Source: Syntrophotalea carbinolica DSM 2380
Lineage (GTDB): Bacteria; Desulfobacterota; Desulfuromonadia; Desulfuromonadales; Syntrophotaleaceae
Direction: 5' to 3'
Assembly (NCBI RefSeq): GCF_000012885.1
Contig: NC_007498.2
Location: 1,054,001 to 1,118,000, forward strand
DNA length: 64,000 nucleotides
Position numbers and translations under genes: made by a program. How positions within the stretch are numbered: position 1 is the stretch's first letter; each line of letters opens with the position of its first letter. The notes beneath the pieces were generated by a model. The model saw only the letters and a program-made list of their open reading frames with translations, searched no databases and had not been told where the DNA came from. Shown here in pieces: positions 3,045 through 59,388 of this stretch.

Positions 3045-6000
3045 TCAGTGCTTATTGGTCTTCTGAACAGAACGATTTCGTTCCTCTTTGATTTTTCTAA
3101 ACTCCGCCTCCAGATCCTTGTTGATAATCACCGAAGGTTCATTTTGTTCGCCACTCTTTCCAAAGCGCTGTCGAATATGCTCCTGCAACGTCTCGAGCCC
3201 CGCGGATGCGGAACCATATAGTGCAAGAAACGCAAGAACGGGACCGCCGATGACGAGAGTATATCCATACGCATTCAGGGCAAACTCAAGAACGGTGCTC
3301 CCCTCTCTCGCCTCGGTAAGCGACCAGAAAACACTGCCGTCCCTGAAATTTTCCGCTTCGCTAAAGTGAAAATCGTATGCTTTTAAAACCGTCTCAAATT
3401 CCGCGGTTAAACCGAAGTATTCCGTCAGAATGGTGTCGCTGACGATGCCACGCGCCAGAAGTTCTCCGGCAAGGGGATATGCGGACAAACTCTCCAGCCG
3501 TTCGCGATAGGGACGATCCACCGTCAATCCGAAGCGAACGAGTTCCGTGACATTGCGGTTGCTGTTTATCTCATCGCTGAAGAAAAGTTCCTTGTCGCCT
3601 ATCCGGTGCGCCACCTCGTGGATCGGCCGCGAATTGTAAGCCGCACTCTCCTCATGCACTTCGAGCGAACCGGTCCCTTCGTCAAAGCGTTGAATAATGC
3701 CTTGCATCTCTCCCAACACCCGCGAGTAGACCTTTTTCCTTTCCATCAGTTTGGGCTTGTACTCCAGGGCCGAGAACACGGTTTCGCGCAAAGGGTCTTT
3801 GCCGGAAAAATGATATTCATCCATCATGCGATAAACCGCTTCTTTATCCAATCTTTCCCGTCGGCAAAGATCATTAACCGCCACGCGCTTTTCCCGATTC
3901 CAATAGCCGGTGAACATTTCCTCCAGGTCCTGGTCGGCCGTGAGTTGCGGCATGTATTCGGCAATGAAGCGCTCGATCAACTCCCGCTTGCTCCGCAGTT
4001 GCGCCTCTCGACCCAGCATTTCCAACACCGTCCGCACGGAGTCGGCGCCGGGTTGTGCCGAACCGGTCTGCTGCTTGCGGTATTGAATGTCGCTCAGCAG
4101 CTTGACGATATAGCCGACGTTCACTTCGTCGCGCCGGATCAGTTCGAGCTGAAAGTCGATCTCCTCGATGATGGACGCGCCCTCCTGCCAGGCATGGGTC
4201 CGATCGTAAATATCGAGATACTTGCTCTTGTAGTCCTCGAATCTCTGTTCGGTCAGCTCCAGGTCGCTCCAGCTGAAATCGTTAAAGGGTTTGAGCTTGT
4301 TCAGGGTCACGATCAACTGACGGAACGCTTTGACATAGGCCAGCTGTTCCTCCTCGGTAAACAGCCCATTGACCGCATCGGGCGTTGCGGCGATCTCCAA
4401 CAGGTGCCGAACGCCCTGATTGAAGCGCTCCATATACACTTCGTAAGGCTCCATCAGGACATCTTCGCTGGCCTCGGTATCGCAGAAAAGTCGGATCGCC
4501 TCGTCGGTGTTCTCTTTGAGATTGCGGAAGCAGACGATGTTTCCCTGCGATTTAAGCTCGCCGAGGATACGGTTGGTGCGGGAATACGCCTGGATCAGAC
4601 CGTGATATTTCAGGTTCTTGTCCACGTAGAGGGTGTTGATCTTCTTGGCGTCGAAGCCGGTGAGAAACATGTTGACCACCAGCAGAATGTCGGCCCGGTC
4701 CTTGTCCTTGAAGCTTTCTTTCTCCCGCTCCTTGAAACGCTTGGCGATATCCTTGTAATAGGTATAGAACGCCTTGCTGTCCCTGACCGAATGCTGCGTG
4801 CGGTACAGGGCATTGTAATCGGCCACATACTCTTCCAGCTTTTCGCGGCTGTGTCTGCTCTCCGGGGCATCGACGCGGATATCGAAATCGGGCTCGCCGA
4901 TCAGGCCGTTGGCGTCCTGATCTTCCTCGTTGGGGTCAAAAGTGAACACACTGACCACCCGCAGGTCGTGCTCGCCGGCCTGTTTCTTGCGTTTGAAGAT
5001 ATCGTAATACCTGGTCAGCGTCGCGACATTGCCTGCGCACATGATGGCCGAGAAGCGGCGGTTGTGGGTTTTACGATTGTGATGGGCGATGATCCAGTCG
5101 ACAACCCCGGTCAGTCGTGCTTCGTTTTCGAAAAACGCTTTTTTGTCGATGGACGCGACCTGCTCGTCTATCAGGGTGCCGTCCCTGCGTTTGAGCTTGC
5201 CCCAGTATTCCACCGAAAACTTGAGGACGTTTTCGTCCCTGATGGCATCGGTGATGACATACTTGTGCAGACATTTTTCAAACAGGCTCTTGGTGGTGCG
5301 CTTGCCATGTTTGTTGAAGGTGGCATTCTCGGCAAAAATCGGCGTGCCGGTAAATCCGAAGAGTTGCGCCTTGGTGAAATAGTTGACGATATTCTTGTGC
5401 GTATCGCCAAACTGCGAACGGTGGCACTCGTCGAAGATGAACACCACGCGCTTATCCCTGAGCGCCTCCATGGCCTTTTCATGCCTCGGCTTCTTGATGG
5501 CGGTGTTCAGCTTCTGAATGGTGGTGACGATCAGCGAGTTATCGCCCGCCATCTGTTTCACCAGGGTTCTGGTATTGTCCGTCCCATCGACACTGCCCGG
5601 ACTGAAAAAATTGAACTCCTCGGTGGTCTGGTAATCGAGATCGGCGCGGTCGACCACAAAAACCACCTTATACACCTTGGGCAGATGCGTCAGGATCTGC
5701 GCCGCCTTGAAGCTGGTCAGCGTCTTCCCGGAGCCGGTGGTGTGCCAGATATAGCCGTTTTTGCGCCCGTTTTTCACCCGCTCGACGATCGCCTCGACCG
5801 CGTAATACTGATAGGGCCGCAACACCATCAGCAGCTTGTGCGATTCGTGCAAAACGATGTATTTGCAGATCATCTTGGAGAGATGGCACTTTTCCAGGAA
5901 CAAATCGGCAAATTGGTCGAGCTGGGTCACCGGCTGGTTGTTTTCCCTGGCCCAATAGAAGGTCTGCTTGAATTCCTGCTTGCGGTTATTGGCGTAGTAC

Positions 6001-49435: not shown

Positions 49436-49480
49436 TTGACAACAAAAACGAACATAAACTACATTGATGTCGAACAGAAT
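49436..49480 (+). promoter_or_regulatory. cutC promoter with GlpR/DeoR-like half-sites
   Basis: TTGACA (49436-49441) with a TACATT -10 at 49460-49465. CGAACATAA (49449-49457) lies between the boxes and CGAACA recurs at 49471-49476. CGAACATA is the half-site recognised by GlpR-type DeoR regulators. The first 28 bases match the transporter promoter at 56380 at 25 positions. Confidence 0.65.
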
Positions 49481-49630
49481 GGTTCATCGGGAGCGTGACA
49501 GAGCTCATGGTCGGACACCGGTTGCTGCAAAACTGAACAGTCGCCGTCGTTTGGCCCTGTCGACCCTGATGATCGAAAGTTTTAAGCCACGCTTGTTAAC
49601 CTTTTACACCCAAGATAACGGAGGTTGATC

Positions 49631-52057
49631 ATGGCAGGATCTTGTTGTGGTGGAATAGCTGAAGGTGCCACCCGTAAGAAGTTTGAGCTTCCCGAGCGTA
49701 TTCAACGCCTCAAGGATGCCTATCTGCAAGTCAAGCCGAGCATTGCTATCGGTCGTGCTCTGGCTTTTACTGAAGTGACCCGCCAGAATCCCGGTATGCC
49801 GGAAATTCTGCGCCGGGCCCTGGCTTTTAAAAAAGCGTGTGAAGATGCGCCCTTGCTGATCCAGACCGACGAGTTGATCGTCGGACATCCTTGCGGTAAG
49901 CCGCGCGCCGGGGCTTTTTCCCCGGATATCGCCTGGAAATGGGTGCGCGACGAACTGGATACCATCGGTACGCGTTCCCAGGATCCCTTCGTGTTTAGCG
50001 AGGAAGACAAAAAAATCATGCGCGAAGAGATCTTCCCTTTCTGGGAAGGGCGGTCTCTGGATGAGATCTGTGAGACCCAGTACCGCGAAGCGGGCCTTTG
50101 GGAGTTTGCCGCCGAAGCGTTTGTCAGCGATCTTTCCTACCATCAGGTCAACGGCGGCGGCGATACCTGCCCCGGTTTCGACGTGATCCTGTTTACCAAA
50201 GGTGTCAGCGGCATCAAGGCCGAGGCTGAAGCCCATCTGGCCAAGCTGTCCATGGACGTGCCCGACGATATCGACCGGATTTACTTCTATAAAGCGGCTA
50301 TCCAGACCTGTGAAGGCATTGTGACCTACGCAAATCGCGTATCCGCCTATGCGAAGGAACTGGCCGAAAAAGAGCAGGATCCCAAGCGCAAGGCCGAGCT
50401 GGAAAAAATCGCGGAAGTCAATGCCCGCGTACCGGCCAACCCGCCCAGCTCCTTTCAGGAAGCCTTGCAGTCGATCTGGACCATCGAGTCGCTGTTCGTG
50501 ATCGAGGAAAACCAGACCGGTCTGTCCCTGGGGCGTCTCGACCAGTATGTTTATCCCTGCTACGAAGCCGACATCAAAGCCGGCGTTATCGACGAAGATC
50601 AGGCCTTTGAGCTGATGAGCTGTTTCATCATCAAATGCGCCGAAATGATGTGGCTCACCAGCGAGTTGGCCGCCAAATACTTTGCCGGTTACCAGCCTTT
50701 CATCAATCTGTGTGTCGGCGGGCAGAAACGCGAAGGTGGCGATGCCACCAACGACCTGACCTACCTGGTCATGGATGTTGTTCGCAAACTCGGCGTCTAT
50801 CAGCCTTCACTGGCCTGCCGCATTCACAACCAGTCGCCGCAGAAGTATCTGCAGAAAATCGTCGAAGTCGTTAAAGCCGGTCTCGGCTTTCCCGCATGTC
50901 ACTTCGACGATGCCCATATCAAGATGATGCTTCGTAAGGGCTACGATTTCGAAGATGCCCGCGATTACTGCCTTATGGGCTGCGTCGAACCTCAAAAGTC
51001 GGGCCGCATTTATCAGTGGACCTCCACCGGTTACACCCAGTGGCCGGTCGCCATCGAGTTCGTGCTCAACCGCGGCGTAATGAAGTGGCACGGAACCAAG
51101 CAGGGTATCGACACCGGCGATCTTGATCAGTTTGCGACCTATGAGCAGTTCGATGCCGCGGTCAAAGAGCAGATCGAATACATCTGCAAGCTGTCCGCAG
51201 TCGGCACCGTTATCAGTCAGCGCGTGCATCGCGATGTGGCGCCCAAGCCGATGATGTCCCTGTTTGTCGAAGGCTGTATGGAGACAGGCAAAGACGTTTC
51301 CGCCGGCGGTGCTGTGCTCAACCACGGTCCGGGGCTGATCTTCTCCGGTCTGGCCACCTATGCCGATTCCATGGCTTCTATCAAGAAGCTCGTCTACGAC
51401 GACAAGAAATACACTTTGGCCGATTTCCAGAAAGCGCTTGACGCCAACTGGGAAGGTTACGAGCAGATGCGCCAGGATTGCCTGGACGCACCCAAGTACG
51501 GCAACGACGACGACTACGCGGATAAGATTGCCGCCGATCTGGTCGAGTTTACCGAAAAGGCCTGCCGGCAGTTCAAGATGCTCTACTCCACCATGAGCCA
51601 CGGCACCCTGTCGATCTCCAACAACACCCCCATCGGTGAGATCACTGGCGCAACCGCGGATGGCCGCCTGGCTTTTACGCCGCTGTCCGACGGTATCAGC
51701 CCGGTACAGGGCGCCGACAAAATGGGGCCGACGGCGATCATCAAGTCGGTCAGCAAGATGAACTCAGAGTCGATGAACATCGGCATGGTGCACAACTTCA
51801 AGTTGATGGAAGGTATTCTGGAGACGCCTGAAGGCGAAGCCGGTCTGATTACCCTGCTGCGTACCGCTTCGATTCTCGGCAACGGTCAGATGCAGTTCAG
51901 CTACGTCGATAACGAGGTGCTCAAGCAGGCTCAGCAGAGCCCCGAAGAATACCGCGACCTCATGATTCGTGTGGCCGGTTACAGCGCCTTCTTTGTCGAG
52001 TTGTGCAAAGAAGTGCAGGATGAAATCATCAGCCGTACCACGCTGTCCGGTTTCTAA
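49631..52057 (+). CDS. cutC: Choline trimethylamine-lyase (glycyl radical enzyme)
   Basis: An 808-residue glycyl radical enzyme that cleaves choline to trimethylamine and acetaldehyde. The radical site is Gly783 in RVAGYSA near the C-terminus; the thiyl Cys451 and Glu453 lie in [10 protein letters not shown]. Tyr170 and Asp178 (YHQVNGGGD), Phe357 and Thr464 are also present. All these match the choline-contacting residues of Desulfovibrio alaskensis CutC with a constant offset of 38, so identity with CutC rather than diol or glycerol dehydratase is strong. The N-terminus is 38 residues shorter than that enzyme. The ATG at 49631 has GGAGG. The activase gene is 6 kb downstream, and there are no microcompartment genes. 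The acetaldehyde would go to cytoplasmic alcohol/aldehyde dehydrogenases. Confidence 0.95.
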
Positions 52058-52060
52058 AAA

Positions 52061-52100
52061 ACTGTCAGGGCGGATTGGTAAACCGGTCCGCCCTGACAGT
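52061..52100 (+). terminator. Strong hairpin between cutC and porin
   Basis: A 14-bp perfect stem (ACTGTCAGGGCGGA at 52061-52074 with its complement at 52087-52100) starts four bases after the cutC stop. No T run follows, so it may protect the cutC transcript or only partly terminate. Confidence 0.65.
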
Positions 52101-52332
52101 CATGCAGTTTGTGTTTGCAGGGTTGTGTCGGACGGTAGGGTTTCGACCTTTGAAAATTTGCATATTTTATGAAATGCGCCTGGTTGGTAATTCAGTATCC
52201 GAAATGTGAACAGGCTTGTCATCCGATGCCGTAAGGAGTGTCGGATTTATGATGAAAACAGCCTAGGAGTTGTCGGTTCTGTGTGCTCGCCGACAATGAA
52301 CGCAGGACATTACTCGATGGAGGAGCAAGGCA

Positions 52333-53724
52333 ATGAAGAAGGTTAGATTGGGGAAAAAGTTGTTGCTTGGTTTGCTGGCAGCCTGCCTGGCTTTAGGTGC
52401 GGCGCCGGTTCAGGCGGAAATTTACGGTATCGATTATAAGGGGTTGCATGCCGGTGTCGGTTTGACCGCCGCCATGGGTACTTTCCATACCAGTAACTCC
52501 AATTTCGGCGCCGGCGGCGTGGTGAACGGCGACAAGGACAACAGTTGGTTCGAAGCGTATATTATGCCGAGTTTGAACCTGTCTTACGATTCCGGCAAGT
52601 TCGGTACTCTGTACGGAGAGTTCGCCTACGTCGGCAGTCAGACCTTTGGCGGTATCGATCCCATCGGCTTTTCCCAGACGTTCGGCGGTAGCGAAAATCC
52701 CGGTGATTGGGAATCCGAACTGTTTTATGTCGGCTGGAAATCCGGATCCCTGATTCCGGGGCTGCCTGAAAATGTCATCGACATCTCCTTTGGCGAACAG
52801 ACCTTCTCTATTGGCGACGGGTTTCTGGTTGCCGATGCGGAGTTCGACGGAGCCAAGGGGTGTTACTGGATCGCTCCCCACAAATCGTTCCGTGAAACCG
52901 CTATCCTCAAAGTCAATACTGAACCCGTACGGGCCGACTTCTTTTACCTCAAGGCCGACAAGGATTACGCCGATACCGAAATGTACGGCGTGAATGTGGA
53001 ATATATCAAGGAAGGCTTCGGTACTCTCGGTGCTTCCTGGATGACCGTGACCGACGCCAACGAATTCTATGAGGATGGCGTGACCGAAAACTTCTACGCC
53101 AACCGCGACGGCATGGATATCTGGAGCGTGCGTTTCCAGGGCAATCCGTTGACGGCGTGGGGTCTGGAAGAACTCTTCCTGGCCGGTGAATACGCCGATG
53201 AGTCCGGCGGCGACCGGGCCGATGTGGATGCCTACGGCTACTATCTGGAAGCCGGCTGGACCTTCAGCAATCTGCCCTGGACACCGACTCTGAGCTATCG
53301 TTACGCCTTCTTTTCCGGCGACGAAACCGATACCGACGATTACGAAGCCTTCGATCCCATGTTCTACGGTTTCCTGCGCGGCTGGGGCACCCATTTCATG
53401 GGTGAGGTGGTTGGCGAATACCACCTGTTCAACAGCAACCAGCAGATCCAGATGGTGCACCTGAACCTGGTCCCGACCGACAAGCTGTCCGTCGGTGCGA
53501 TCTACTACAACTTCAAGCTCGACCAGAACAACATCTTCGGCACGCCTGTCACCAGCGATGAGTATGCCGATGAAATCAACCTTTACGCCGACTATGCTCT
53601 CAATGACAATGTGTGGATCAGCGGCGTGTTCGGTTGCGCTTTCCCCGGCGAAGCCGCCGAGCAGTACTGGGGCGATGATCAGGCCATGATGATTGTGGAA
53701 GCCTACGTGTCCTTTTACTTCTAA
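52333..53724 (+). CDS. Outer-membrane porin-like protein
   Basis: A 463-residue exported protein: signal peptide (KKLLLGLLAACLALGAAPVQA, cleavage before EIYG), then many amphipathic beta strands rich in Tyr, Gly, Asp, ending in VEAYVSFYF, the terminal Phe of outer-membrane barrels. It probably forms a channel. GGAGG precedes the ATG. Its place directly after cutC suggests it helps choline or a related cation cross the outer membrane; the many surface Asp and Glu residues would suit this, but specificity is inferred. Confidence 0.75.
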   Translation: MKKVRLGKKLLLGLLAACLALGAAPVQAEIYGIDYKGLHAGVGLTAAMGTFHTSNSNFGAGGVVNGDKDNSWFEAYIMPSLNLSYDSGKFGTLYGEFAYVGSQTFGGIDPIGFSQTFGGSENPGDWESELFYVGWKSGSLIPGLPENVIDISFGEQTFSIGDGFLVADAEFDGAKGCYWIAPHKSFRETAILKVNTEPVRADFFYLKADKDYADTEMYGVNVEYIKEGFGTLGASWMTVTDANEFYEDGVTENFYANRDGMDIWSVRFQGNPLTAWGLEELFLAGEYADESGGDRADVDAYGYYLEAGWTFSNLPWTPTLSYRYAFFSGDETDTDDYEAFDPMFYGFLRGWGTHFMGEVVGEYHLFNSNQQIQMVHLNLVPTDKLSVGAIYYNFKLDQNNIFGTPVTSDEYADEINLYADYALNDNVWISGVFGCAFPGEAAEQYWGDDQAMMIVEAYVSFYF

Positions 53725-53773
53725 ACACAGTTGACGAGCTGCCCTGCGGGGCAGCCGCAAACTTCCTCCCAAG

Positions 53774-53815
53774 GCTCCCGGTCAGACCGCAAGGTTTGCC
53801 GGGGGCTTTTTTTTT
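53774..53815 (+). terminator. Intrinsic terminator of the porin gene
   Basis: GCTCCCGG (53774-53781) pairs with CCGGGGGC (53799-53806, one G-U), with a small inner hairpin GACC-GCAA-GGTT, followed by nine T. Confidence 0.75.
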
Positions 53816-53917
53816 ACGGTGATAGAGATGGTGTTCGGTGCAAAGCGCGATGCCGGGACTGTCGGCGGGGGAGGAGGGCGTAGACCAGGGGGTGGAGCGG
53901 GTGGCCTTGTTGGGCTG

Positions 53918-55015
53918 TCAGCAGGGGAAAAGGGCTTTTTGCAGTACGCGTTCGACTTTGCTGCGATTTTTTTCGAGCCAGCGCATCAGGCGCACGTGGT
54001 GTTTGAGGTAGTAGAGGTATTCCTTGTCGGGGCAATTTTCCCTTTCCAGGTAGTACGTTTCGTCGGTCGCCCATTTGATGAGGCTGAGGTTGGCGGCGGT
54101 CACCATGGGGAAGAAAAAATCGCACTCTTCGGTGGTCAAGGGGCCGGGATTATCCGAGCGGCAGGCGCCTTTTTGATATGCCCGGAGAAACAGAGGGGTT
54201 TTACGCAGCCACAGGCTGCCATCCGTATTGGCTTCCCAGCAGCTGCAGAAGTAAATGACGGCCAGGGCTACATCGAACAATCGCAGGTCGAGGCAGGCTC
54301 GGTCGAAATCGAACACGCCGATAACCCGGTTGAGATTGTATTTCTGGTTGCCGGGGTGGAAGTCGCCGTGAATTCCGATGATCGGCAGATCTGTGGCTTG
54401 TGTCAGTTGGTCATGGGTTCTCTGGCTGATGGCCAGGATGTCCGGAAGGTTTTTGAGGAAGTATTGGTCGAAGCAGCTTTTTTGGGCCCGTTCGGCGCAT
54501 CGATCGAGGTTGGCCGGCAGGGCGGACAGGCGTTTGAGGATAGGCTGGTGGAGCGATTCCAGCGGACCCGGATCGAAATCGGCGGCGCAGTTGTGCAGAT
54601 CGGCCAGCATTCGGCCGGAGTAGGTGTATTCCTCGTCGCTGAGACGATTGGATGTCCAGGAGTATTTGTCTTCGCCGCCGATGAATTCGAATACCGAGTA
54701 AAGGAGATCTTCCGAGGTGCCGGCGTTCGGGACAGGCCGGCGAGCAAAATTGGCGCCTTCTCGCGTACGTACGAGGGCGGCGACCATGTGCCCTCCGTTT
54801 GCAACGATATGTTCGATCAGCGAGTGCTCGAAGCAGATATGTTCGACGGGGGTTCCCTGACGATAAATACGCAATAGGTATTTATGGAAACGGTTGCCGG
54901 TCTGGGTCGTGAGTTTGAAGCTGAAGTTGGTGTAGCCGCCATACAGTTGCGCAATTTCTTTGAACTTGCCGATGTCGTAGCAGTCCTCGATGACTCTGAC
55001 CGCCTGTTTGATCAT
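53918..55015 (-). CDS. APH/choline kinase-like phosphotransferase
   Basis: A 365-residue protein of the aminoglycoside phosphotransferase/homoserine-kinase-like superfamily. The catalytic loop is GIHGDFHPGNQKYN and the metal-binding Asp is in VFDFDRACLD; the N-lobe has the Gly-rich GGYTNFSFKL. Such enzymes phosphorylate small alcohols or amines, including choline. It follows the DeoR regulator gene in the choline locus, so choline or an ethanolamine-like alcohol is a reasonable but unproven substrate. The ATG at 55015 begins the conserved part. Confidence 0.72.
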   Translation of the reverse strand: MIKQAVRVIEDCYDIGKFKEIAQLYGGYTNFSFKLTTQTGNRFHKYLLRIYRQGTPVEHICFEHSLIEHIVANGGHMVAALVRTREGANFARRPVPNAGTSEDLLYSVFEFIGGEDKYSWTSNRLSDEEYTYSGRMLADLHNCAADFDPGPLESLHQPILKRLSALPANLDRCAERAQKSCFDQYFLKNLPDILAISQRTHDQLTQATDLPIIGIHGDFHPGNQKYNLNRVIGVFDFDRACLDLRLFDVALAVIYFCSCWEANTDGSLWLRKTPLFLRAYQKGACRSDNPGPLTTEECDFFFPMVTAANLSLIKWATDETYYLERENCPDKEYLYYLKHHVRLMRWLEKNRSKVERVLQKALFPC

Positions 55016-55107
55016 GAGCCTGCAGAATAACTGACTCGGGAAGGTACTCGGAGACGATGCCGGAGCATCGCTCTTTTTCCTTTGTATCAAAGGTCCCCCG
55101 CCCGGCA

Positions 55108-55935
55108 TTAATCAGCCACCAGGACCCGGATGCCGAGAGCTTTAAGGTCGTGCAGGTATTCCTCGGGCAGTTTGTGGTCGACGATCAACAGATCGACCTT
55201 TTCTATGGGGGCCACCACGAGATCCGCAACCCGGCCGAAGGAACTGTGGGTGGCCAACACGATGACCTGTCCCCTGGTTTGCTGGATCATGGCGCGTTCA
55301 AGAGCGGCTTCGGTGAATGAGGGCGTGGTGATGCCGTCACGAAAACTGATGCCGTCGGGGATCAGGAAAGCTTTTTTGGGATGAATTTCCTGCAGGGTTT
55401 CCATGGTCAGAGACCCTTCCATGGAGTGGGTCTCCGGCCGGTATTCGCCTCCCAGAAGAATCAACTCCGCCCGTTTGCCCTTGATTTCCTGAATGGCTCC
55501 GACGTTGTTGGTGTAGACGCGCACCGGCATATCGGGATCGAGGTGCCGCAGCACATACAGGGCGGTGGTGCCGGAATGGAGGAACAGGGTGTCGTGAGGT
55601 TCGATCAGCGACGCGGCCTTGCGGCCGATCTGGTCCTTGATGTCGGGCAGCTCTTTGAGGCGGGTTTCGTAGGGCTCTTCGTGGGTCATGCGTTCCTGAC
55701 GATAGACTGCACCGCCGTATGTGCGCTCAAGCAGGCCCTGCCGTTCGAGAGTTTCCAGGTCGCGCCGAATGGTCATCTCCGACACGCCCATCATTTCGCT
55801 CAGTTCGGCTACCCGGATAGTTAACCGTTCCTGAAGCAGGTCACGGATACGCATGTGCCGTTCTGCGGGCAGTAACTGGTCGCTATTGTTGTGCTGTCCG
55901 TTGGATTTGGCTGTCTTTCCGTTGTCCTCAACCAT
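55108..55935 (-). CDS. DeoR/GlpR family transcriptional regulator
   Basis: A 275-residue regulator: N-terminal DeoR helix-turn-helix (RHMRIRDLLQERLTIRVAEL, MGVSEMTIRRDLETLERQGL), then the DeoR sensor domain (DTLFLHSGTTALYVLRHL, ILLGGEYR) that binds a sugar or small phosphate ligand. It is divergent from the transporter-cutD genes. The ATG at 55935 is preferred to the TTG at 56031, since AAAGGA and a TATGTTCG site lie between. Matching CGAACATA sites occur upstream of cutC and the transporter, so it is the likely local repressor; the ligand is unknown. Confidence 0.85.
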   Translation of the reverse strand: MVEDNGKTAKSNGQHNNSDQLLPAERHMRIRDLLQERLTIRVAELSEMMGVSEMTIRRDLETLERQGLLERTYGGAVYRQERMTHEEPYETRLKELPDIKDQIGRKAASLIEPHDTLFLHSGTTALYVLRHLDPDMPVRVYTNNVGAIQEIKGKRAELILLGGEYRPETHSMEGSLTMETLQEIHPKKAFLIPDGISFRDGITTPSFTEAALERAMIQQTRGQVIVLATHSSFGRVADLVVAPIEKVDLLIVDHKLPEEYLHDLKALGIRVLVAD

Positions 55936-55941
55936 CGTTGG

Positions 55942-55950
55942 TATGTTCGA
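55942..55950 (-). promoter_or_regulatory. GlpR-like half-site upstream of the DeoR gene
   Basis: TATGTTCGA, the reverse complement of the CGAACATA found in the cutC and transporter promoters, lies 7 bases before the chosen DeoR start. It fits autoregulation. Confidence 0.5.
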
Positions 55951-56379
55951 TCCTTTCTGTTTTTGTTCTTTTATAACACCGCTGGCAGGTTCAGGCAATG
56001 GAAGTTTTCCGTATGAAACAGAATTCAACAATATTGATGGGGGGCGTTTGTGGAAAGTGTTTGATCCTCGGTCATTGAGGGAAGGCTGTGGGTGGTGCGG
56101 TTTGCGCAGGAGGGGCGGATTGCGGGATGATGAAGGAAAAGATATGCCGTGTGAGGTTGTGTGTTTGAGTGTGATGATGTTGGTGCTTTGATGGTAAGCC
56201 GCTCCTGTCCCCCTGTGGGGTGTTCCAGCCTATCCCGGATGTCTCGAAAACATTTAGAAAAAGGTTTTAAATAGCGTGCATCCGCGATTTGGAAGGACGT
56301 TTCGCGGTGGTGCCCGGGGTAACGTCAGGCATTGGGGAGTGGTGTTGCATGATGCTTGATGTGAGTCCCAAAATAACAC

Positions 56380-56432
56380 TTGACAACATAATCGAACATA
56401 ACCTACAGTTTGATTGTTCATATGAACATTCG
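56380..56432 (+). promoter_or_regulatory. Transporter promoter with CGAACATA site and TGTTCATATGAACA palindrome
   Basis: TTGACA (56380-56385), CGAACATAA (56393-56401) and a TACAGT -10 at 56404-56409 repeat the cutC promoter layout. A perfect 14-base palindrome TGTTCATATGAACA (56415-56428), followed by TTCG, lies at the likely transcription start. The gap to the gene (56433-56823) holds no called gene and forms a long leader. Confidence 0.65.
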
Positions 56433-56823: not shown

Positions 56824-57855
56824 ATGGCTAACGGGGTGCAAACAGCAAGTATGGCCGGAACACGTGTTTCGGCACGGCAGGTTTTCGAACAAAAGGAGCT
56901 GGGGTTTGTCAAGCGCGGACTGGCGACGGCGCTCGGCTCCGGCATGTTGTGGGGGCTCGACGGTGTCATTCTGGGCATCGCTCTGGCGATGGCTCCCTTT
57001 ACCGCTGGTGCGACGATGTATGCGGCACCGCTGGCCGGTTCGGCCCTGCACGACGGTTTCGCCGGTCTATGGCTGGCCCTTTACAACCTTTTCACCGGTC
57101 GCTGGAAAGATATCGGCCGATCTCTGAAAACCTTTCCCGGTTTTATCGTCTGTGTAGGCGCTCTACTTGGCGGCCCTATCGGTATGGGAGCCTATCTGCT
57201 CGGTATTAACTTTGCCGGTGCGGCCTACGCTATGGGCATCTCGGCCGGGTATCCGGTGGTGGGCGCTATCATGGCCCGCCTGATTCTCAAGGAAAAGATC
57301 AGTCCGCGTGTCTGGTTCGGGATTATTACCTGTGTAACCGGCGCGGTTATTCTCGGCTACGTTCCGCCCGAGGGCGGCACCATGCCGCACTTCTATCTTG
57401 GTATCGGTTGCTCTTTACTGGCAGCGTTTGGTTGGGGTACTGAAGGTGTTTTGGCTACCTTCGGGATGGACATGGTCGATCCGGCTGTCGCCATTAATAT
57501 CCGCGAGGCTACTTCCTGTCTTGTTTCCTTGCTGGCAGTTCTTCCGTTTGTCGCTGGAGTTGCTGTTTTCGGTCAGGCGCTGATTACGCCTAATGTTGTG
57601 TGGATTATCGCCCTCGCAGGGTTGGCTGGTGGTTTCTCCTACCTGCTCTGGTACAAGGCTTTCAGCATGTGCGGATGCAGCCGCTGCATGGCTCTGAATA
57701 TTACCTATGCCATCTGGGGTCTGGTGTTCTCTTACTTCCTGACGGATGTCGCGATTACCACCAACCTGGTGATTGGTGCTGTTGTCATCACCATTGGCGC
57801 CATCATGGTTGTTGGCAATCCTAAAGAAATGATCAACCTGCGGGCGGAGGCTTAA
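56824..57855 (+). CDS. DMT-superfamily transporter of the choline locus
   Basis: A 343-residue inner-membrane protein with about ten hydrophobic helices in two EamA-like halves (SGMLWGLDGVILGIALAMAP; FGWGTEGVLATF; ITYAIWGLVFSYFLTD). Members of the drug/metabolite transporter superfamily carry small organic cations and metabolites. Its promoter matches that of cutC and it is followed after one base by a small gene and then cutD, so choline or trimethylamine transport is a good inference. GGAG precedes the ATG. It replaces the BCCT-type choline carriers of other organisms. Confidence 0.75.
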   Translation: MANGVQTASMAGTRVSARQVFEQKELGFVKRGLATALGSGMLWGLDGVILGIALAMAPFTAGATMYAAPLAGSALHDGFAGLWLALYNLFTGRWKDIGRSLKTFPGFIVCVGALLGGPIGMGAYLLGINFAGAAYAMGISAGYPVVGAIMARLILKEKISPRVWFGIITCVTGAVILGYVPPEGGTMPHFYLGIGCSLLAAFGWGTEGVLATFGMDMVDPAVAINIREATSCLVSLLAVLPFVAGVAVFGQALITPNVVWIIALAGLAGGFSYLLWYKAFSMCGCSRCMALNITYAIWGLVFSYFLTDVAITTNLVIGAVVITIGAIMVVGNPKEMINLRAEA

Positions 57856-57856
57856 C

Positions 57857-58141
57857 ATGGCAACTGTACTTCCTATGCGTTTTCGGCTTCTTCATTATTT
57901 CTCAACGGTAAAAGAAGCCTCGACCAGGCAATTGATGGATGGACTGCGTTCCGAGTACGGAACCGAAGGGCAGTTCAACGAAAGTGTCATCAATGAGCAT
58001 CTTATGTCCATGCGGGCCGGAGGGCTGATTGAAACCAACGATATTGAACTGGATGCCGCCGGTAATCTGGTGGTGAATTATTCCATAACCGAGTTCGGGC
58101 AGGGCCGTCTCAAGTATCTTCCCGAATCCTGGAAAGCATGA
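57857..58141 (+). CDS. Small unknown protein, possible winged helix
   Basis: A 94-residue soluble protein (RFRLLHYFSTVKEASTRQLM; LMSMRAGGLIETNDIELD; YSITEFGQGRLKYLP). The helix-helix-strand order with LIETNDIEL..NYSITEFG resembles a small winged helix of the PadR/MarR kind, but I do not recognise the family. It begins one base after the transporter stop, with GGAGG, so both are co-translated. A regulator or adaptor for the transporter or activase is possible. Confidence 0.65.
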   Translation: MATVLPMRFRLLHYFSTVKEASTRQLMDGLRSEYGTEGQFNESVINEHLMSMRAGGLIETNDIELDAAGNLVVNYSITEFGQGRLKYLPESWKA

Positions 58142-58186
58142 AATGCCGAATCGTTGTCGCCCCGCAATCCGGGGCGACAACGATTC

Positions 58187-58404
58187 AAGTGACAAGTGAC
58201 AAGTGACAAGTGACAAGTGACAAGTGACAAGTGACAAGTGACAAGTGACAAGTGACAAGTGACAAGTGACAAGTGACAAGTGACAAGTGACAAGTGACAA
58301 GTGACAAGTGACAAGTGACAAGTGACAAGTGACAAGTGACAAGTGACAAGTGACAAGTGACAAGTGACAAATCACCAATCACCAATCACCAATCACCAAT
58401 CACT
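58187..58404. repeat. Heptamer tandem array (26 x AAGTGAC, then 5 x AATCACC)
   Basis: AAGTGAC repeats 26 times without interruption at 58187-58368 (182 bases). After one base, AATCACC follows four times plus AATCACT (58370-58404). The array fills the gap before cutD. As 7 is not a multiple of 3, copy changes shift frames but here alter only leader length. Open frames across it on the minus strand (repeating SLVTCHL) are artefacts. Confidence 0.95.
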
Positions 58405-58431: not shown

Positions 58432-59388
58432 ATGAGTGAGCAAGTACAAGCCAAGGGTGTCGTTTTCGATATTCAAAAATACTCCATGCACGATGGTCCC
58501 GGTGTTCGCACTCTGGTGTTTCTCAAAGGCTGTCCGTTGCGCTGCCAGTGGTGTTCCAATCCCGAGAGCATATCTCCTGAGTTTCAGGTTATGTGTCTGG
58601 CAGATCAGTGTGTTTCCTGCGGCAAGTGCCTTGCCGTCTGTCCGAACGGGGTCCATGCCATGGAGTCCGTGGCCAACGGTTCGTCGCAACACCGGGTCGA
58701 GCGGAGTGTCACCTGCATCGGTTGCGGCGCCTGTGCCAAGGTCTGTCCGGCTAAGGCCTTGCGAATTGCCGGTAAAGAGATGACGGTGGACGACGTGGTC
58801 AAGGTGGTCATGGAGGATCAGTTCTTTTATATGACTTCCGGCGGCGGTGTCACTATCGGTGGCGGAGAGCCGACATTTCAGCACGACTTCGCTGCCGCCA
58901 TATTGAAGCAATGCCGGCTCAACGGGGTGCATACGGCCATGGAAACCTGCGGTCAGGCTTCATGGGAGACTTATGAGCTTCTTGCGGAGCATGTCGATTT
59001 GTTTCTCTTCGATCTGAAGCATGCTGATTCCGATCTGCATAAAAAGTTTACAGGTGTCGGCAATGAGCGTATACTCCAAAATCTGAAAGGGTTAATCGAG
59101 CTTGGGGCCAGCGTTCTGGTGCGTATCCCCTTGATCTGCGGGGTGAACGACGCCCCCGAAACCCTGTCAGCCGCCATGACCTGGCTGAAGTCGACCGCGA
59201 AAAATGCGGCCAATCTCAAAGGGGTCGAAGTGTTGCCCTACCATCGCCTGGGTGCCAGCAAGTATCGCCAGCTCGACATGGATTATCCCTTGACGGACAT
59301 GGCGAGCCATACGGATGCGCAACTGGCGCAGATCCAAGACTTGCTGTCCGGATTTGATTTGCCCGCGCGTATCGTCAAACATGCCTGA
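58432..59388 (+). CDS. cutD: CutC-activating radical SAM enzyme
   Basis: A 318-residue glycyl radical enzyme activase. The radical SAM cluster motif is Cys34, Cys38, Cys41 (GCPLRCQWC), followed by two ferredoxin-type [4Fe-4S] motifs (CVSCGKCLAVC; CIGCGACAKVC) characteristic of activases for non-formate-lyase GREs, the GGGEPTFQ SAM-binding segment, and LPYHRLGASKY near the C-terminus. It abstracts hydrogen from Gly783 of CutC. The ATG at 58432 is 27 bases after the heptamer array, with AGAGGA. It is unusual that it is not next to cutC. Confidence 0.93.
   Translation: MSEQVQAKGVVFDIQKYSMHDGPGVRTLVFLKGCPLRCQWCSNPESISPEFQVMCLADQCVSCGKCLAVCPNGVHAMESVANGSSQHRVERSVTCIGCGACAKVCPAKALRIAGKEMTVDDVVKVVMEDQFFYMTSGGGVTIGGGEPTFQHDFAAAILKQCRLNGVHTAMETCGQASWETYELLAEHVDLFLFDLKHADSDLHKKFTGVGNERILQNLKGLIELGASVLVRIPLICGVNDAPETLSAAMTWLKSTAKNAANLKGVEVLPYHRLGASKYRQLDMDYPLTDMASHTDAQLAQIQDLLSGFDLPARIVKHA

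Follow-up and report, generated by a model that had tools for sequence, protein, structure and literature searches.

What switches on choline cleavage in Syntrophotalea carbinolica DSM 2380, and which protein holds the switch? The stretch analysed here, called the window throughout (64,000 nucleotides, positions 1,054,001 to 1,118,000 of NC_007498.2), carries cutC for a choline trimethylamine-lyase, a gene for a regulator of the DeoR family (55108-55935) and a licB-like gene for a probable choline importer, with nearly the same promoter element in front of cutC and of the transporter gene. A first-pass annotation had taken this shared promoter-operator as the mark of a DeoR-controlled choline regulon. 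Our computational results support that proposal: the element is present in six genomes with CutC, is nearly exclusive to these genes, has a third member outside the window and recurs at two distant DeoR loci. As far as nucleotide sequences can tell, it is conserved, almost restricted to these genes and linked to DeoR genes. We thus consider it quite probable that a sigma-70-type promoter holds, in the spacer between its -35 and -10 boxes, the operator of DeoR, and that DeoR represses a choline regulon through it.

A shared element in the spacer of two promoters

The 28-base blocks at 49436-49463 (TTGACAACAAAAACGAACATAAACTACA) and 56380-56407 (TTGACAACATAATCGAACATAACCTACA) are identical at 25 of 28 positions and differ at three. 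Both promoters show the -35 box TTGACA, an 18-base spacer and a -10 box (TACATT for cutC, TACAGT for the licB-like gene) with four of six consensus bases. Since a perfect -35 box, the spacer and a -10 box are present in both blocks, it is the agreement within the spacer that needs explanation. In the cutC promoter, this spacer holds the direct-repeat-like sequences ACAACAAAAA and CGAACATAAA.

The agreement had been judged to go far beyond what -35 and -10 boxes require, and this judgement stands. The best ungapped 28-base match between the upstream regions of cutC and of the transporter gene (300 and 500 bases) is again 25, while among 500 pairs of dinucleotide-preserving shuffles the highest value was 22, and 0/500 reached 25. 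The genome scan suggested at the same time, performed with a degenerate 28-mer on the single 3,665,893-base contig, returned two exact matches, namely the cutC and transporter sites, and none for the reversed control.

Both promoters carry a further symmetrical motif 3′ of the -10 box. At the transporter gene it is TGTTCATATGAACA, which is indeed the perfect palindrome announced by the first-pass annotation at 56415-56428 and occurs once in the window; one base of it is changed in each of the relatives G113, G114 and G115. The inverted repeat GAAC-N6-GTTC near cutC, made of the same half-site, is kept in G113 and G114 and has one base changed in one arm in G115 (read by eye).

Conservation and distribution of the element

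Relatives were compared in four sets: 136 genomes for gene order, 14 genomes of the family, 277 of the class and a wider sample of 395 from the phylum; G000 denotes the genome of the window and the other G numbers its relatives. CutC exceeds its cut-off in six of the 136 genomes (G000, G113, G114, G115, G122 and G032). The order cutC, porin, kinase, deoR, licB, padR-like, cutD is found on one contig in G000, G113, G114 and G032; the G115 cluster is split across two contigs and the G122 contig stops just past deoR. In all six genomes the element lies 5′ of cutC, as it does 5′ of the licB-like genes for which upstream DNA could be seen.

A sequence-only profile, built from 10 sites that come from five genomes other than G000, was then run on the 14 whole family genomes. 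In G000, where 150 of 1964 first-look candidates were scored, it recovered the cutC site (37.0 bits), the licB site (32.5 bits) and a third site at 1146903-1146932 (32.1 bits, E 3.7e-7), about 29 kb outside the window; the next match reached 11.1 bits. This third site precedes a second licB-padR pair (L097, G000:C1:1145168-1146932), an arrangement also present in G113, G114 and G116.

Among the 277 class genomes, 17 sites were found at E<=1e-3 in seven genomes: six at cutC and 10 at licB-padR units. The remaining one, at the end of a G122 contig, points away from deoR, and only its position assigns it to a licB-like gene. Ten of these sites had built the model, which then found the other seven. 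TTGACAACA and the -35 box TTGACA are common to all 17 between variable flanks, and each site allows a TANNNT hexamer 17 or 18 bases further on, the script used having favoured that form. As the scans of 277 and 395 genomes applied stricter filters and scored part of the candidates, weak sites may be missed in both.

Two weak matches in the class, in G106 and in G122:C105, the two whose surroundings were inspected, were taken as chance, since 277 genomes should give about 2.8 at E<=0.01; the one in G106 (L117, ~4959-4978) reads CACTTGACAACA, with 19.0 bits and E 0.0063, in a genome where the class search gave no DeoR homologue. The matches in G285, G300, G349, G429, G559 and G406 (the last at 9.9e-4) were discarded likewise, six being seen against about four expected in 395 genomes.

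Could the two blocks simply mark strong promoters of a widespread kind, or stem from a recent duplication of upstream DNA, with no operator at all? TTGACA is the consensus -35 box, which suits such an explanation. It leaves aside the bases beyond the hexamers that are invariant in 17/17 sites amid variable flanks, as well as the drop to 11.1 bits at the fourth match in the genome, and we hold it to be very improbable.

The DeoR protein and its relation to GlpR

The regulator is a clear member of the DeoR family (PF08220, 61.9 bits for a cut-off of 21; PF00455, 137.6 bits for a cut-off of 31.8) and the only DeoRC protein detected in G000. All six DeoR proteins compared share the helix VSEMTIRRDL without change.

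The half-site CGAACAT(A/T) resembles that of GlpR, whose operators are palindromic with CGAACAT half-sites. The half-site is present in the DNA, and the curated models reject GlpR identity for the protein (NF008154, 87.6 against 331; NF041397, 157.1 against 300). The regulator shares with E. coli GlpR its domain architecture; a literature search for the full GlpR consensus matched no paper. It differs from GlpR by its scores below the GlpR cut-offs, by a non-palindromic, direct-repeat-like main element in the promoter spacer, the half-site palindrome lying 3′ at the licB-like promoter, and by linked genes that concern choline. Its best NCBIfam match is to AgaR-type repressors, with 169.6 bits, yet below the cut-off of 260.

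The sensor domain is homologous to the DeoRC domain of E. coli DeoR (7l6l, E 6.4e-12), with differences at characteristic residues. The DCGTT of E. coli DeoR reads HSGTT here (His for Asp) and HHGTT in G122. All six cut-linked DeoR proteins have Ser or Thr in place of the Lys of DHSKFG; the corresponding Lys of HSKFG is retained in the DeoR proteins of G378 and G579. The effector may therefore differ from that of E. coli DeoR. The DeoR class is better known for sugars, its members being usually regarded as sensors of sugar phosphates.

The same site had also been reported upstream of deoR. There, the 8-base half-site CGAACATA is present, reading CGAACAAA in G113, G114 and G115; because the 8-mer has seven copies in the window, where 1.6 are expected from base composition, and the 36-column model finds no full site at deoR, the words ‘same site’ hold for the half-site only. 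Autoregulation of deoR through the same 28-base site is thus unsupported.

DeoR or the PadR-like protein as binder

Within the class, DeoR homologues (E<=1e-40) occur in seven of 277 genomes, namely the six CutC genomes and G258; six hold both a homologue and a site, all counts being made regardless of relatedness. In the 14 family genomes, a DeoR homologue and CutC over its cut-off coincide in the same five.

A second candidate is encoded in the cluster itself. The 94-residue protein following the licB-like gene has a predicted fold of the PadR/LmrR type, and the operator could belong to this protein, which would then repress its own transporter operon together with cutC. Ten licB-padR units with visible upstream DNA carry the site, the sole exception being a diverged unit in G028, and PadR-like proteins occur in eight of 277 class genomes, among them all seven with sites.

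Several observations weigh against DeoR as the binder or against a strict link between DeoR and the element. The PadR-like gene tracks the class sites slightly better than deoR (7/7 site genomes against 6/7): G116, whose assembly is 84% complete, possesses a PadR-like gene and one site, 5′ of licB2-padR2, but no detected DeoRC protein. This genome has no CutC over the cut-off, and a check for a gap through a neighbouring ATP-synthase gene gave no match in either G116 or G117. Conversely, the DeoR of G258 is 61-62% identical, with no site within 20 kb. G028 and G029 carry a fragmentary cutC without recognised DeoR; there is no site in the 6.6-kb contig of G028, and the G029 contig starts inside cutC. 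The missing full site at the window’s own deoR belongs to the same list, and so does the loss of the second half-site (CGAACAT) in the three sites of G032 and in one of G122, TTGACAACA being kept. As the second half-site is altered and the first invariant in these four, the exact contact bases are uncertain. Since G116 speaks for the PadR-like protein, and G028 and G258 against a strict link of either protein, the two candidates are nearly equal within the class.

What helps to separate them comes from outside. In the phylum sample, a DeoR homologue is found beyond G000 in two of 395 genomes, G378 and G579. In G378, from another class, DeoR is 49-51% identical and a site, TAACACTTGACAACAAAAACGAACATCATGTA (34.2 bits, E 7.8e-8), lies directly 5′ of deoR; the gene after deoR closely resembles dimethylglycine dehydrogenase (5l46, E 1e-161; L127, 7104-10413). 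In G579, a shorter and weaker match, TAACACTTGACAACACA, came from a local 70-kb search (14.1 bits, E 0.0035) and is not among the matches of the 395-genome scan. It lies about 6 kb 5′ of deoR, ahead of a string of same-strand genes (L126, 1067-10561) comprising ABC-transporter genes, a gene of the choline/ethanolamine-kinase family (PF01633, 73 bits for a cut-off of 29), deoR and a gene whose domains are laid out as in dimethylglycine dehydrogenase. Both gene strings concern methylated amines.

When nine window proteins were compared with 20 kb around the G378 locus and 18 kb around the G579 locus, only DeoR matched, the rest of both genomes not being searched for cutC, licB and PadR-like genes. 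At these two loci, then, the element goes with DeoR without PadR-like, licB or cutC neighbours, which favours DeoR over the PadR-like protein and lowers the latter as main binder. Two further points count against the PadR-like protein. Its two paralogues in G000 are 55% identical, and the putative recognition helix is not the same in the two types, whereas their operators are alike; besides, the diverged pair of G028 (licB 32%, PadR-like 36%) has no site in its contig. On this evidence we consider it unlikely that the operator belongs to the PadR-like protein.

A proposed repressor acting from within the promoter

The proposed repression by DeoR would proceed as follows. DeoR, probably as an oligomer, would bind the AACA half-sites ACAACA and CGAACA, which lie about 10 bases from each other, and could also contact the extra GAACA arms near the transcription start. 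From its position in the spacer, the oligomer would block RNA polymerase. The repressed set would include cutC, perhaps with the porin gene, then licB-padR-cutD, cutD being counted in since it follows the licB-like and padR-like genes, and also the second, unlinked licB-padR unit, the extents of these operons being putative. With choline present, a small metabolite would release DeoR, so that uptake and cleavage to trimethylamine and acetaldehyde would be switched on together.

DeoR might also bind the element without being a simple repressor, either as an activator or jointly with the PadR-like protein. Some proteins of the family do activate, an L-fucose operon activator being among the NCBIfam models listed, and the two -10 boxes of the window match four of six consensus bases. 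Against this, the conserved bases occupy the spacer between the -35 and -10 boxes and the surroundings of the presumed start, and the -35 box is TTGACA in 17/17 sites; operator bases in such places usually mean occlusion of RNA polymerase. Either mode therefore appears to us improbable, and repression by DeoR is retained.

The nature of the inducer is a more delicate matter. A kinase gene stands beside deoR in the cut clusters and in G579, and none was seen beside deoR in the 20-kb stretch of G378, which makes phosphocholine as inducer a guess; a phosphorylated choline derivative supplied by the kinase next to deoR is thus a weak suggestion. The identification of the window kinase as a choline kinase is unsupported: a profile search points to homoserine kinase and weakly to YtaA, and the fold search to APH-type kinases, with N-acetylhexosamine 1-kinase, YtaA and homoserine kinase at the top. 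The window and G579 kinases are at most distantly related (BLASTP E 0.049).

Genes of the cluster

The features of the locus are collected in Table 1. In each of the six genomes whose CutC exceeds its cut-off, the porin-like gene adjoins cutC. The first possible ATG of the APH kinase gene overlaps the stop codon of deoR (TAATG), a later ATG being also possible. Homology of the transporter to LicB was established by phmmer, with 7b0k (E 1.5e-26) as sole match among solved structures. Scans of Pfam and NCBIfam gave no match for the PadR-like protein. Between its gene and cutD, at about 58186-58370, some 180 bases consist of the 7-base tandem repeat CAAGTGA (by eye), whose copy number could affect cutD expression.

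Table 1. Genes and putative regulatory elements of the choline locus (window coordinates)
Feature	Position	Strand	Basis or remark
Promoter-operator 1, 5′ of cutC	49436..49463	+	-35 TTGACA 49436-49441; -10 TACATT 49460-49465; ~37.0-37.1 bits
GAAC-N6-GTTC inverted repeat	49472..49485	+	just 3′ of cutC -10; read by eye
cutC, choline trimethylamine-lyase	49631..52057	+	TIGR04394, 1591.7 bits (cut-off 1050); PDB CutC chains
Outer-membrane porin-like gene	52333..53724	+	Pfam Alginate_exp, 1.8e-10; synteny
APH-fold small-molecule kinase	53918..55108	-	Pfam APH, 9.1e-25
deoR, proposed repressor	55108..55935	-	HTH_DeoR and DeoRC
Half-site CGAACATA	55942..55949	-	between Shine-Dalgarno-like GGA and deoR ATG at 55935; by eye
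Promoter-operator 2, 5′ of licB-like gene	56380..56407	+	-35 TTGACA 56380-56385; -10 TACAGT 56404-56409; 32.5 bits
Perfect palindrome TGTTCATATGAACA	56415..56428	+	3′ of -10 of licB-like gene; one copy in window
licB-like DMT/EamA transporter, probable choline importer	56824..57855	+	Pfam EamA; LicB 7b0k
94-residue winged-helix protein, predicted PadR/LmrR-like fold	57857..58141	+	model pLDDT 84.8; Foldseek PadR/LmrR matches
cutD, CutC-activating radical SAM enzyme	58432..59388	+	TIGR04395, 408.4 bits (cut-off 360); 3′ of licB-like and padR-like genes

Relation to known choline systems

The cluster shares CutC and CutD with the microcompartment cut clusters of gut bacteria, and LicB is a choline transporter that occurs in gut genomes, according to PMC6620236. 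The cluster differs from those of gut bacteria by the presence of deoR inside the cluster and by the absence of a shell protein among the seven proteins scanned here. A cluster of microcompartment type was seen by eye in G028 (L115), with shell-like genes, a MerR-like gene and the diverged licB-padR pair; unlike the window cluster, it has no operator in its contig.

The 2012 genome paper on Pelobacter carbinolicus states, in its passages on choline lysis, that strains grow by splitting choline, and suggests one of two duplicated ethanolamine ammonia-lyases as the choline lyase; the present cutC is unmentioned in those passages (PMC3543383). We propose the window’s cutC locus as a better candidate for the choline lyase than the duplicated ethanolamine ammonia-lyases.

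The word DeoR has no occurrence in the main text of PMC3543383, PMC6331629 and PMC6620236. More broadly, a literature search, mostly at the level of titles and abstracts and hence not proof of absence, found no description of a DeoR-family regulator that controls choline cleavage through a spacer operator. The parts of this system are of known kinds, and such a regulator would be an apparently new combination.

Meaning for choline and methylamine metabolism

A wider generalization is tempting and, on balance, doubtful: that a DeoR subfamily senses choline and related N-methylated amines in more than one class of the phylum, acts through a nearly fixed spacer operator, controls cutC-type cleavage or dimethylglycine-dehydrogenase pathways, and has for inducer a phosphorylated derivative of choline that the product of a nearby kinase gene supplies.

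Methanogenesis in saltmarsh sediment draws on choline cleavage, for which PMC6331629 names Pelobacter as responsible. Trimethylamine formation in the gut draws on it too. With a candidate regulator, a candidate operator and a putative regulon of three units at hand, the induction of cutC becomes directly testable, and the element may be used as a marker for further methylamine genes.

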